Origin: Caldinitratiruptor microaerophilus | GTDB taxonomy: Bacteria; Bacillota; Sulfobacillia; Symbiobacteriales; ZC4RG38 | Direction of reading: 5' to 3' | Length of the DNA: 64,000 nucleotides | NCBI RefSeq assembly: GCF_025999835.1 | Contig: NZ_AP025628.1 | Coordinates: forward strand, 1,550,001 to 1,614,000 | Part shown: positions 49,626 to 53,976 of the stretch, piece after piece | Layout of the letters: every line of letters begins with the position of its first letter | Numbering within the stretch: the first letter of the stretch is position 1 | The notes under the pieces: generated by a model | Told to the model about the DNA's origin: nothing | The model's input: only the letters and a program-made list of their open reading frames with translations | Databases searched by the model: none | Position numbers and translations under genes: made by a program

Positions 49626-50840
49626 TCAGAACCTCGTGGGAACCAGGCTCGACTCGACCGTGATCCGGTTGCGCTGCCCCCCGGCGTCCTGGACCGTGAA
49701 CACCCCGGCCACCGACATCTGCGACTGCTGCACCGGGATGAGCTTCTCGTCCTCCCAGGCCGGGTCCTGGATCGATACCTTGAACCGCTTCGTCTCCCCG
49801 GGTCCCACCGTGCCTTCCGGCTCCACCGCAAACAAGTGCGGGTACCCGGGGTCGGCCGTCGCCCGGTTCACGAAGGTCAGGTTCGATGTGGTGAACTCGA
49901 CCAGACGGACGGGCTCGTTCCCCAGGTTCGTCACCTCAACCTCCATGGCCAGCGTGTCCGTATCGGGATCGTACGTGGCCGCCGTTGCCCTGGCCTCGGC
50001 AAAGCGCAAGGGCTGGGCGATCTCCGGTGGCTCGAACCGGATGACCTGCTGGGGGATCCGCACCGGGAAGGCCCGCTGGATGTACATCCAACCGGCGGCA
50101 AGGAGAACGACCGCCAGGAGAGCCACCACGTTGACGAACCGGTGATCGGCCTTCGTGATGAGGCCGACAGCCGCGCCGTCGTCGTTGATCGGCAGTTGGC
50201 TCGTGACCGCTAGCCGCGTCACCGTCGGCTTCGGCCCGGTCCAGTACCACATCCACCATAGCCCCAGGACGAGGCCGAAGAGGGCCCACCCCACCACGAA
50301 CCCGGTCTGGTAGCGCTCCAGGTCCACGGTCCTGCCGTCGAAGAGCGTCACCAGGTTCCGGAATCCGCCCGCCGCCTCCTGCACCGTGATCCACTGCCCC
50401 GGCCCCAGGAGCGAACCGGCGCCCTCGATGGCAAGCACCGGGTGCACGTGCCACTGGCCCGGCCGGCGCCCTTCGACCGTCATCCGGAACTCGTAGACCC
50501 CACCCTTCCGGACGAAGATCGAGCCGGGCGCCGGCTTGCCGTTCACGATCCTCTCCTTCATCACCACCACCGGACCCGGCGCCACCACGCCCAGGTACGC
50601 CACCTCGGGCTCCGGTAGCGTAGGCGGCCAGGTCTCCAGGATCTTCGCCGTGCCCGTGATGGTCAGGGACTCGCCCTGCTTCACCGTGTCCGCGGAGAAC
50701 CTCACGTCGAAGAAGGCGACGGTCTTCTGCCTCAGGAATGCCTCCTGAGCGCGCTCGCCGTGGGCGAACACGCCCGAGGTCAGTCCCACCGAGAGCCCGA
50801 TGGCCAGGGCGAACGTGAAAAGAAGCCGCTTCATTCTCAT
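49626..50840 (-). CDS. pmoB: Copper membrane monooxygenase subunit B (PmoB/AmoB/HmoB-like)
   Basis: 404 residues: signal peptide cleaved at FA|HG, an N-terminal cupredoxin domain, two membrane helices (about 182-204 and 240-258) and a C-terminal cupredoxin domain ending SSLVPTRF. The CuB ligands are all present: H27 as first residue of the mature protein (HGERAQEAFLRQKTVAFFD), and H131 and H133 in WHVHP. They correspond, six positions earlier, to H33, H137 and H139 of Methylococcus. The start overlaps the stop of the small ORF (ATGA). It is the last gene of the C-A-x-B operon, with a hairpin after it. This order differs from C-A-B by the inserted gene. Confidence 0.95.
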   Translation of the reverse strand: MRMKRLLFTFALAIGLSVGLTSGVFAHGERAQEAFLRQKTVAFFDVRFSADTVKQGESLTITGTAKILETWPPTLPEPEVAYLGVVAPGPVVVMKERIVNGKPAPGSIFVRKGGVYEFRMTVEGRRPGQWHVHPVLAIEGAGSLLGPGQWITVQEAAGGFRNLVTLFDGRTVDLERYQTGFVVGWALFGLVLGLWWMWYWTGPKPTVTRLAVTSQLPINDDGAAVGLITKADHRFVNVVALLAVVLLAAGWMYIQRAFPVRIPQQVIRFEPPEIAQPLRFAEARATAATYDPDTDTLAMEVEVTNLGNEPVRLVEFTTSNLTFVNRATADPGYPHLFAVEPEGTVGPGETKRFKVSIQDPAWEDEKLIPVQQSQMSVAGVFTVQDAGGQRNRITVESSLVPTRF

Positions 50841-51100
50841 TCCCGTTCACTCTCCCTGCCGTTCCGGGGACCGTCCCCGCGCGGCACCACCGGTCCGCCC
50901 CGGATGACCTCCGCCAGTCCCGGCACGACCTCGTCCCACGCCATGACGAGAAACCCTGCAACACCCAGAAGCACCGAGAGAAGGGCCGGGCGGGTGATGT
51001 CGACCTCTGAGTCCGCACCGCCGTGCGCCAGGGCGAGCGGCGCCTGCAGCCACAACGACCCCATGACCGTCAAGACGACGGATACGAACCGGCGCCTCAC
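50837..51100 (-). CDS. Small exported membrane protein inserted between pmoA and pmoB
   Basis: 87 residues of unknown family. It has a signal peptide (RRRFVSVVLTVMGSLWLQAP) with predicted cleavage at LALA|HGG, so the mature protein would begin with histidine just as PmoB does. One membrane helix follows (PALLSVLLGVAGFLVMAW) and then a short polar tail. It starts 16 bases after pmoA and overlaps pmoB by 4 bases, so it is made with the complex. It is not PmoD-like. A small added subunit or copper-delivery factor is inferred only from position and N-terminus. Confidence 0.8.
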   Translation of the reverse strand: MRRRFVSVVLTVMGSLWLQAPLALAHGGADSEVDITRPALLSVLLGVAGFLVMAWDEVVPGLAEVIRGGPVVPRGDGPRNGRESERE

Positions 51101-51116
51101 CGATCACCCCGCCTTT

Positions 51117-51881
51117 CTATACCTGCTTCAGGAACCTGCGGATGGGCCAGACGGCCAGGTAACGGCCGATGAACTGGCCAACCCAGTACCCGGCGATCGC
51201 CAGCGTAGCGCCGAAGGCGAAGGCGACGTACTGGGCCTCCTGCAGGAAGGTGCGCAGCGACCCGTGCTCGATGACGCGCAGGTATTCCGGGGTCTGCATT
51301 CGGAGATAAGCGATGCCCTGGACGTCCGCAAGAGTGACGACGTGCCCCATGAACTGCACGGGTTGCAGGAAGGGCGCCAGCGGAACATAGTTGCCCACCC
51401 ACAGGGCGAGGGTCCACACCATCCCGCCGATCAGGGAGGTGAGCACGAAGCTCCGGGTCTTCAGGAGGATCCAGTCCATCAGGATCCCGGCCAGGATGGT
51501 CGACTGCGGCCACACGAAGTTGAGCGGATAGGAAACGAGGACCTTCCACTGCAGCCACCGGCCGATCCACGAAGCGAGGAACAGGCACACGGACGTATAG
51601 GTGGCGCCCGTGGGGAACCGCCACGCCGCCCACTGGATGTACTGGAGCGCCGACGGAATGATGATCATGGCAAAGGGCGTGATGGTCATCCACCACTGCC
51701 GGTCCTTCCAGTCCGTCCACATGTCCCAGTCGCCCGCGAACAGGAGCTTCGTGATGTCCGCGGCGGCCGCCACCACGAACGCCGCGGTGACCCAGAAGAC
51801 GAGATCCCACTTGCGGTCGATGAACCGGTACTTCTTGTTCACGAGCTGCCGGAGCTCTTCCACCCGCGCGACCGTCGCCAC
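51117..51881 (-). CDS. pmoA: Copper membrane monooxygenase subunit A (PmoA/AmoA/HmoA-like)
   Basis: 254 residues, about seven membrane helices. The universal primer region GDWDMWTDWKDRQWWMTITP is present. Family stretches YPLNFVWPQSTILAGILMDWILL, ADVQGIAYLRMQTPEYLRVIEHGSLRTF and the IGR-containing end also align by eye with PmoA. GTG 51881 is chosen because GGAGGAGG lies 7 bases upstream and the size then equals known PmoA (about 247). The local pattern reminds me of Gram-positive hydrocarbon monooxygenases more than of ammonia monooxygenase, but a tree is needed. Confidence 0.95.
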   Translation of the reverse strand: MATVARVEELRQLVNKKYRFIDRKWDLVFWVTAAFVVAAAADITKLLFAGDWDMWTDWKDRQWWMTITPFAMIIIPSALQYIQWAAWRFPTGATYTSVCLFLASWIGRWLQWKVLVSYPLNFVWPQSTILAGILMDWILLKTRSFVLTSLIGGMVWTLALWVGNYVPLAPFLQPVQFMGHVVTLADVQGIAYLRMQTPEYLRVIEHGSLRTFLQEAQYVAFAFGATLAIAGYWVGQFIGRYLAVWPIRRFLKQV

Positions 51882-51920
51882 ACCGCTCCCTCCTCCACAT
51901 CCAAGACTCATCTTGATCGT

Positions 51921-51959
51921 GCGGCCCTGCCGGCGCCACGCGGACGGCGGCAGGGCCGC
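51921..51959 (-). promoter_or_regulatory. Stable hairpin between pmoC and pmoA
   Basis: Perfect 12-base arms GCGGCCCTGCCG (51921-51932) and CGGCAGGGCCGC (51948-51959) with a 15-base loop, 12 bases after the pmoC stop. There is no T-run, so it more likely protects or processes the pmoC message than terminates it; similar hairpins follow amoC in nitrifiers. Confidence 0.7.
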
Positions 51960-51971
51960 AACCACAGGGGG

Positions 51972-52775
51972 TCAGCTGGCCGCCCCCACCTCAGTGGGCA
52001 TCTCGATCTCCTTCTCGATCTGGTACAGACGGATGATCGTCTCGGCCCACAGGGCGAAGATGCCGCCCGCCAGCCACCCGTACGTCACGAACGGCCAGTG
52101 GAAGGGGGCCGCGAAGAACTCCTCCGCCCACCACAGGCTGTGGCCCCATTCGTTGAACGCCACCTGCAGCATCTCGGTGACCGAGGCGGCGATGAGGAAG
52201 GCGAAGGACCAGGGGAACCCCCTGGACGGGCCGTACACAGCTGGCAGACGCGTACGGCCGTAGAGGTAGGTGCCGATGCTGAACGTGATGCCGAGGGGGA
52301 ATGCCATGTAGAACATCACCACGTGCGGCGGCGTGATTGCCGTGTCACGGACCACGGTCTGGTGCCACGCACCGTCCTGGTTCGGGAAGAAGCTGGCCAT
52401 GAAGTAAAGGATGAGGCTCGTGATCCCCACGAGGCCCCAGAAGGTGGCGATCCGGCGCACCTCCTCCCGGGCGTCGACCTTCTCCGCGGCCAGCGCCCGG
52501 CCCGACTTGACGAGCCACCCCCACCAGAGGCCGGTGAACGCACCCACAGACAGGATCTCCGCGACGAACAGGCTACGCCAGTACAGGGTGAAGTCGTAGC
52601 TGGCGGAGTCGAGCCCGGCGGTCCAGAACCGGAGCACGTACAGCTCGAGCCCCAGGAAGAGCGCCAGCACGGCGGCGTAGCCCCACAGGAGGGTCCGCCA
52701 GCCACCGAGCCAGTCCGTCGGGCCGTATCGCTCGGAAACCACCCGCCGTTCCTTCACGGATGCCAGGGTTGCCAT
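51972..52775 (-). CDS. pmoC: Copper membrane monooxygenase subunit C (PmoC/AmoC/HmoC-like)
   Basis: 267 residues with about six membrane helices. The CuC/CuD ligand pattern is complete: D134, H138 and H151 (D-x3-H-x12-H, in PNQDGAWHQT and TPPHVVMFYMAFPLG) match D156, H160 and H173 of Methylococcus PmoC, and N208 and H212 (FNEWGHSLWWAEE) match N227 and H231. The segment FAAPFHWPFVTYGW is also conserved. A GGAGGAGGAGG site precedes ATG 52775. It is the first of the monooxygenase genes, 157 bases after the alcohol dehydrogenase gene. Confidence 0.95.
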   Translation of the reverse strand: MATLASVKERRVVSERYGPTDWLGGWRTLLWGYAAVLALFLGLELYVLRFWTAGLDSASYDFTLYWRSLFVAEILSVGAFTGLWWGWLVKSGRALAAEKVDAREEVRRIATFWGLVGITSLILYFMASFFPNQDGAWHQTVVRDTAITPPHVVMFYMAFPLGITFSIGTYLYGRTRLPAVYGPSRGFPWSFAFLIAASVTEMLQVAFNEWGHSLWWAEEFFAAPFHWPFVTYGWLAGGIFALWAETIIRLYQIEKEIEMPTEVGAAS

Positions 52776-52932: not shown

Positions 52933-53976
52933 TCACGGGACCAGGACCGCCCGTCCCTTGACGCGGCCGCCGTGGAGGTCGGCGATAGCCTGGTTCACCT
53001 GGTCCAGGCGGTAGTGCACCGTAGCAAGACGCACCCGGCCCTCACCCGCCAGGGTCATGAGCTCCACGAGGTCCGTGTAGGTGCCCACCAGGTTCCCGAC
53101 GATGTTCTTCTCGCTGAAGATCATGTCGATCGCGGGCACCCGGATCGTTCCCCCGTACCCGATCACGAAGTAGTAGCCCGCGTTCCTCGTCATGGCGAGC
53201 CCCTGTTCGATGGAGCCTCCCTCCCCCACGAAGTCCAGCACGGCCTGCGCGCCCCTTCCGCCGGTGAGGTCGAGAACCTCGCGGACGGCGTCGTCGCCGC
53301 CCTTGACCCGGTACTCCGCCCCGAGCTCCTGGGCAAGGCTCAGGGCCAGGTCGGAGCGGTCGACCACGATGATCCGGGCGGGCGACAGGGTCCGCAGCAC
53401 CTGGAAGGCGATGTGCCCCAGGCCGCCCATGCCGATGATCACCGCGTGGTCGCCCGGCTCGAGCACCCTCACCGCCTTCTTGGCCGCGTGGTAGGCCGTG
53501 AGGCCGGCGTCGGCGTGCGGGGCGACCTCCCTGGGCTCCACTCCGTCGGGCAGGCGGACGAGGTTGCGCTCCTTGACCAGCAGGTACTGGGCGAAGCCCC
53601 CGTCCCGGTTGATGCCGGGGAACACGCCGTTCTCGCAGTGCATGTCGTTGCCCCGGCGGCAGGCCGGGCAGACGCCGTCGGTGATGAGGGGGTGGACGAT
53701 CACCGGGTCGCCCCGCCGGAAGCGGCGCACCCCGCGCCCCACCTCCTCCACCCAGCCGGCGTTCTCGTGGCCGAGGATGTAGGGCAGGTCGACCTCGACC
53801 TTGCCCCGCCAGATGCCCTCGATGATGTGCAGGTCCGTGCGGCAGAGCCCGGCGCCACCGATGCGGATGATCACGTCGTCGGGCTCCTGGATCTCGGGGT
53901 CGGGCACCTCTTCCACCTTCAGGAACTCGGGCCCCCGGAACTCCGGATCGTATTCGTACAGCCTGGCGGCCTTCAC
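52933..53976 (-). CDS. Zinc-dependent alcohol dehydrogenase of the monooxygenase operon
   Basis: 347-residue medium-chain dehydrogenase. Catalytic-zinc region GGAGLCRTDLHIIEG and GHENAGWVEEVG; structural-zinc lobe CPACRRGNDMHC with the first of four usual Cys replaced by Asp; NAD loop VIIGMGGLGHIAFQVL followed by VVDRSD. It should oxidise the alcohol released by the monooxygenase. The start is 6 bases after the DUF59 gene. In actinobacterial soluble propane monooxygenase clusters a similar gene follows the same two accessory genes (from memory). Confidence 0.92.
   Translation of the reverse strand: MKAARLYEYDPEFRGPEFLKVEEVPDPEIQEPDDVIIRIGGAGLCRTDLHIIEGIWRGKVEVDLPYILGHENAGWVEEVGRGVRRFRRGDPVIVHPLITDGVCPACRRGNDMHCENGVFPGINRDGGFAQYLLVKERNLVRLPDGVEPREVAPHADAGLTAYHAAKKAVRVLEPGDHAVIIGMGGLGHIAFQVLRTLSPARIIVVDRSDLALSLAQELGAEYRVKGGDDAVREVLDLTGGRGAQAVLDFVGEGGSIEQGLAMTRNAGYYFVIGYGGTIRVPAIDMIFSEKNIVGNLVGTYTDLVELMTLAGEGRVRLATVHYRLDQVNQAIADLHGGRVKGRAVLVP

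Follow-up and report, generated by a model that had tools for sequence, protein, structure and literature searches.

The window, a 64,000-nt stretch of DNA, harbours on its minus strand a copper membrane monooxygenase (CuMMO) operon with the gene order C-A-x-B, in which x denotes a small gene located between pmoA and pmoB (Table 1). The matches of subunits A, B and C to PF02461, PF04744 and PF04896, respectively, are all far over the cut-offs and cover nearly the full length of these models. The leader of PmoB ends in VFA|HGE. Its copper-ligand motif is intact (H27, H131 and H133), as are those of PmoC (D134/H138/H151 and N208/H212/H226), and we take these residues to be the counterparts of the copper ligands in M. 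capsulatus numbering. Upstream of the operon are genes for a zinc alcohol dehydrogenase, an Fe-S assembly protein, an amidohydrolase and a sigma-54 activator.

Table 1. Coordinates of gene x, its predicted parts and the neighbouring genes in the window
Feature	Position	Strand	Basis
x, predicted exported single-pass membrane protein of 87 aa (signal peptide, HGG, transmembrane helix)	50837..51100	-	sequence, family, AlphaFold
Predicted signal peptide of x, residues 1-25, ending ALA	51026..51100	-	sequence; AxA/VxA/GxA rule; helix 2-26
His26 codon of x, predicted mature N-terminus, sole invariant family residue	51023..51025	-	alignment
Membrane helix of x, residues 36-58	50927..50995	-	AlphaFold
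pmoB/hmoB-like subunit B, predicted mature N-terminus HGE	49626..50840	-	PF04744 E=7.9e-96
pmoA/hmoA-like subunit A, start inferred	51117..51881	-	PF02461 E=6.5e-57
pmoC/hmoC-like subunit C	51972..52775	-	PF04896 E=1.5e-48
Zinc-type alcohol dehydrogenase, same-strand neighbour upstream of the operon	52933..53976	-	PF08240/PF00107

The x ORF starts with a GTG codon, with a GGCGGGG stretch 6 nt upstream. Its TGA stop codon and the ATG of pmoB overlap as ATGA, as the first-pass annotation of this DNA had reported, and this overlap depends on the choice of the pmoB start, given that a second in-frame ATG is found 6 nt downstream. The G+C content of x by codon position (0.76/0.50/0.82) follows the low-second, high-third pattern of pmoA, pmoB and pmoC, while a competing ORF in another frame (0.84/0.75/0.51) lacks the pattern of a real high-GC gene. 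The leader of the predicted product ends in ALA before HGG (MRRRFVSVVLTVMGSLWLQAPLALA|HGGADSEVDITRPALLSVLLGVAGFLVMAWDEVV...), which obeys the signal peptidase I rule and agrees with the earlier proposal of a cut that leaves a His first, as in PmoB. The single membrane helix proposed to follow the leader is also found in the AlphaFold model (mean pLDDT 73), which comprises only helices 2-26 (leader) and 36-58 (membrane). There is no Cys among the 87 residues. Searches of Pfam, NCBIfam and PDB with x and its relatives gave no credible match.

The same annotation had labelled the enzyme 'pmo'. The Pfam matches confirm a CuMMO with subunits A, B and C, but in a tree of A and B the enzyme groups with that of a Rokubacteria locus (L025) and two from Chloroflexi, within a clade that holds the Nocardioides and Binatota enzymes; this tree was built by a quick method from a 33-row set of the hydrocarbon/butane clade and rooted at the midpoint. 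By sequence, the enzyme thus clusters with the hydrocarbon/butane monooxygenases of Nocardioides, Binatota and Rokubacteria, and not with the methanotroph pMMO clade. The former are regarded as likely oxidisers of short-chain hydrocarbons (PMC8262859, PMC8780371). A search of the window genome for a PQQ methanol dehydrogenase returned only PQQ-repeat matches to TIGR03075 below the cut-off. Based on the clade, the lack of a PQQ methanol dehydrogenase above the cut-off and the set of upstream genes, the enzyme likely oxidises a hydrocarbon rather than methane. The window organism is alone in having PmoB among the 398 genomes sampled in its phylum, and among 61 relatives, and thus the CuMMO operon (49626-52775) was probably acquired horizontally.

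To collect related operons, a search for PmoB relatives starting from the single window protein found nothing, and 80 CuMMO loci were gathered with a PmoA alignment. Of the 32 gathered operons most similar to that of the window (PmoA 64-77% identical), 23 encode a homologue of x between A and B; in L033, L034 and L036, the contig ends within the operon. The first-pass annotation had named a lack of conservation in related operons as the result that would speak against its proposal, and conservation was found. All but one of the x-bearing loci are Binatota-like (22 loci, several of them MAGs under other labels), and the other is the Rokubacteria locus L025. We also noted a Binatota-type CuMMO operon in a MAG titled Klebsiella pneumoniae (L028), probably owing to a wrong title or a mixed bin. 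The Binatota-like proteins are built of a leader followed by A|HGG(M/I)xGPDELGPPVxTSxxLGxxCYWxVxLWPSRR, L025 has a looser version of this pattern, and L023 and L029 each harbour two tandem copies of x.

The window protein has the position between A and B, the leader followed by HGG and the single helix of the Binatota proteins, and it matches their profile. Built from Binatota-like proteins only, with the window and L025 copies left out of the seed, this profile found window x among 17,670 ORFs with 31.5 bits (E=1.1e-7), and the next non-member was a PmoD signal peptide (E=0.017). After removal of the leader, window x remained the best non-seed match, albeit a weak one (13.7 bits, E=0.031). 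When the tail and the helix of the mature part were shuffled separately, none of 5,000 shuffles reached the score of window x, and the same result (0/5,000) was obtained with HGG kept in place.

In an alignment of 19 members the His is the only invariant column, and the residues at -3 and -1 suit signal peptidase I (AxA/VxA/GxA) in 18 of them. The exception is the L025 protein, whose likely cut leaves Asp-His. In most members, conservation of the helix motif CYWxVxLWP comes close to that of the His, and window x retains this motif only in part (CYW..LWP). Thus, based on these sequences, the x family is common to related enzymes of other bacterial phyla, with a His always at or beside the predicted exposed end.

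Pairs of Binatota x genes showed a constrained mature core next to a drifting leader: dS and dN of the core are 1.52 and 0.09 for L011/L040, with a leader dN of 0.50, and 0.66 and 0.11 for L024/L030, values that come from short segments (26 codons), some other pairs being too diverged for dS to be estimated. The mature core of x is under purifying selection. A chance ORF or spurious gene, which the shortness of x and its GTG start might suggest, is refuted by this conservation; together with the codon-position pattern, the homologues at the same place and the shuffling test, it leaves that reading a negligible probability. x is a real gene and belongs to a conserved family.

The first-pass annotation had called the protein unknown. 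It does lack a family match, but its position is already on record in Binatota: the report of Murphy et al. (2021, PMC8262859) lists CAxB and CAxxB CuMMO operons in eight genomes, with x given as a hypothetical protein. Its genes occupy the same position as ours, and the tandem copies of L023 and L029 match the CAxxB order. The Binatota 'x' is thus very probably the same gene as the family described here. In the main text of that report, we saw no mention of a family, a motif, a histidine or an export signal for it, or of its occurrence beyond Binatota, and the open-access literature searched likewise yielded no description of the x family, of its histidine or of members in other phyla.

We then compared the distributions of x and PmoB. 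Of 345 genomes sampled around G447, all from the phylum to which the L012 genome belongs, three encode PmoB, and strong x matches occur in exactly these three, while no strong x match was detected in the other 342, which lack PmoB, with at most 13 candidates scored per genome. As the three positive genomes also supplied seed sequences, the absence in the 342 genomes is the only independent part of this result. Among 95 genomes of the L025 phylum, ten with an NC10-type pMMO (PmoB E about 1e-120) show no strong match to x, and the hydrocarbon-type genome of L025 has it. The Methylomirabilota genomes gave weak profile matches (E 1e-4 to 1e-3), all within long ORFs and seemingly of the leader type, and these were discarded without case-by-case inspection. 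These sequence data indicate that x is very probably exported and linked to hydrocarbon-type CuMMOs.

Nevertheless, the link has exceptions. L008, which has the closest PmoA of all (77%), harbours neither a recognisable copy of x nor a small single-helix protein with a His tail after B, and thus the enzyme can apparently work without x. A 157-aa ORF with one hydrophobic stretch follows pmoB there (L008:5347-5820), but by motif it is not a relative of x. An Alicyclobacillaceae MAG (L039) has a distant CuMMO (PmoA 46%) with two pmoC copies and no x. Conversely, the L012 genome encodes a free x paralogue (L106:6184-6486, minus strand; AHAHRGFGPAELGLPLG...CYWIVMLWP) with no CuMMO gene nearby.

Such a free paralogue, and the tandem copies of L023 and L029, would suit a non-stoichiometric factor that helps to assemble PmoB/PmoC or to insert their copper while the enzyme is being made. 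The place of x between A and B and its overlap with pmoB fit co-translational timing, and the exported tail with a His first fits that role as well. However, the entire outer tail is about 10 residues, which is short for a carrier, and nothing in the sequence tells this role from that of a subunit. We regard it as possible but rather unlikely.

PmoD/AmoD (PMC6189053) also has a signal peptide, a His-first start, a C-terminal membrane helix and an association with CuMMO operons. Unlike x, it has a periplasmic domain of the CuA type and a pair of conserved Cys, neither of which occurs in window x. PmoD is encoded nearby in 13 of the 23 CAxB operons, some of them with two copies, and a PmoD profile found nothing in the window genome. 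Paired pmoD genes occur in the Binatota operons L012, L014, L017, L020, L022, L026, L031 and L032; in those read, one precedes C (start HRDRGP) and the other follows B (start HGGV). As 13 of the 23 operons hold both genes, x is not a stand-in for PmoD, and replacement was ruled out. A PmoD relative that lost the CuA-like domain and kept the leader, HGG start and membrane helix would have its parts in the same order. In a profile comparison (hhalign P 3e-5, probability 73%), the leader and AHGG of the two do align, and the mature His is also invariant in eight aligned PmoD proteins. Yet the match is mainly to the leader and AHGG, window x has none of the PmoD cysteines, and PmoD sits beside x in those 13 operons, which makes this origin very improbable. 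Since PmoB, PmoD and x are all exported proteins of this enzyme's surroundings with a His first, copper handling by the predicted tail of x is plausible.

Small single-helix proteins were also found after B in operons with no gene between A and B. Those of L013, L015, L016, L035, L038 and L047, and of the Mycobacterium/Rhodococcus operons L003, L005-L007, L041 and L044, have a short tail with an Ala-His or Met-His step. L-A-H-G-G-Q-x-T-x-D-E is invariant in six Mycobacterium/Rhodococcus proteins, listed as hypothetical (e.g. WP_014805759.1). They resemble x in the LAHGG-x4-DE tail, the single helix and the CuMMO operon, and H-G-G-x4-D-E is common to post-B proteins and many Binatota x members; they differ from x in their place after B and in having no cleavable leader. 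The AHGG..DE motif aligns with that of x (hhalign P 9.7e-5), but shuffles with AHGG fixed score equally high, and neither profile comparison nor shuffles demonstrated similarity beyond the motif. In Mycobacterium, hmoB is followed by overlapping ORFs for two small membrane proteins (L003:6235-6791, L005:6283-6923); the second, of about 115 aa, had no family match in the single copy tested.

The earlier idea of an N-terminal His holds as a prediction for most relatives, but it is not strict, given the Asp-His of L025 and the leaderless actinobacterial look-alikes; in the latter, the free amine would not be on offer. That they retain LAHGG would agree with x being a purely structural helix that stabilises the trimer, with the His kept for packing or signal peptidase cleavage and not for metal, and so would the near-His-level conservation of CYWxVxLWP in most members. 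However, once the window and Rokubacteria copies are counted in, only the His stays invariant and the helix motif does not, and signal peptidase does not require a His at +1. We consider a solely structural role quite unlikely.

In archaea, A, B and C are accompanied by genes for small helical membrane proteins, namely the AmoX, AmoY and AmoZ subunits of ammonia monooxygenase (PMC10030591) and amoX/pmoX of the Thermoplasmata operons, which read C-A-X-B (PMC9038741). Compared by published description only, AmoX differs from x in its two helices and AmoZ in its outer domain with a predicted disulphide. The archaeal proteins were proposed to substitute for parts missing from AmoB/AmoC (PMC10030591, PMC9038741), whereas A, B and C of the window each match almost the whole of the respective Pfam model.

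Taken together, x probably serves the enzyme as a fourth part or a copper helper that has so far been overlooked. A fourth subunit is the likeliest role and a copper-insertion helper the next; on balance, we favour a small, single-pass accessory subunit of hydrocarbon-type CuMMOs. From the sequences we infer that x belongs to the complex, how it is oriented in the cell, that it binds copper and to what end. As a subunit, x would be exported via its signal peptide, with the predicted cut putting His first in most members, and its helix would anchor it so that the short N-terminal tail is outside, beside PmoB. This tail (H-G-G and a few residues followed by an acidic one; putative copper-binding stretch HGGADSEVDITR) would most likely hold a copper ion through the His imidazole and the free amine, like the N-terminus of PmoB. 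The tail might in this way load or shield a copper site of PmoB/PmoC, or stabilise the complex there. A bolder proposal, that the free N-terminal His of this subunit holds a separate copper near the membrane, as a second His-first site besides that of PmoB, and that Binatota x, window x and the actinobacterial post-B proteins form one family, is unlikely to hold in its entirety.

For this superfamily it has long been asked which copper site is the catalytic one and why pMMO becomes inactive on isolation, and among the explanations put forward is that a component is missing. Tied to the hydrocarbon-oxidising branch, x would be a specific candidate for inclusion in recombinant systems and in structure models. 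Its presence suggests that the bacterial hydrocarbon branch, like the archaeal enzymes, has small extra subunits.
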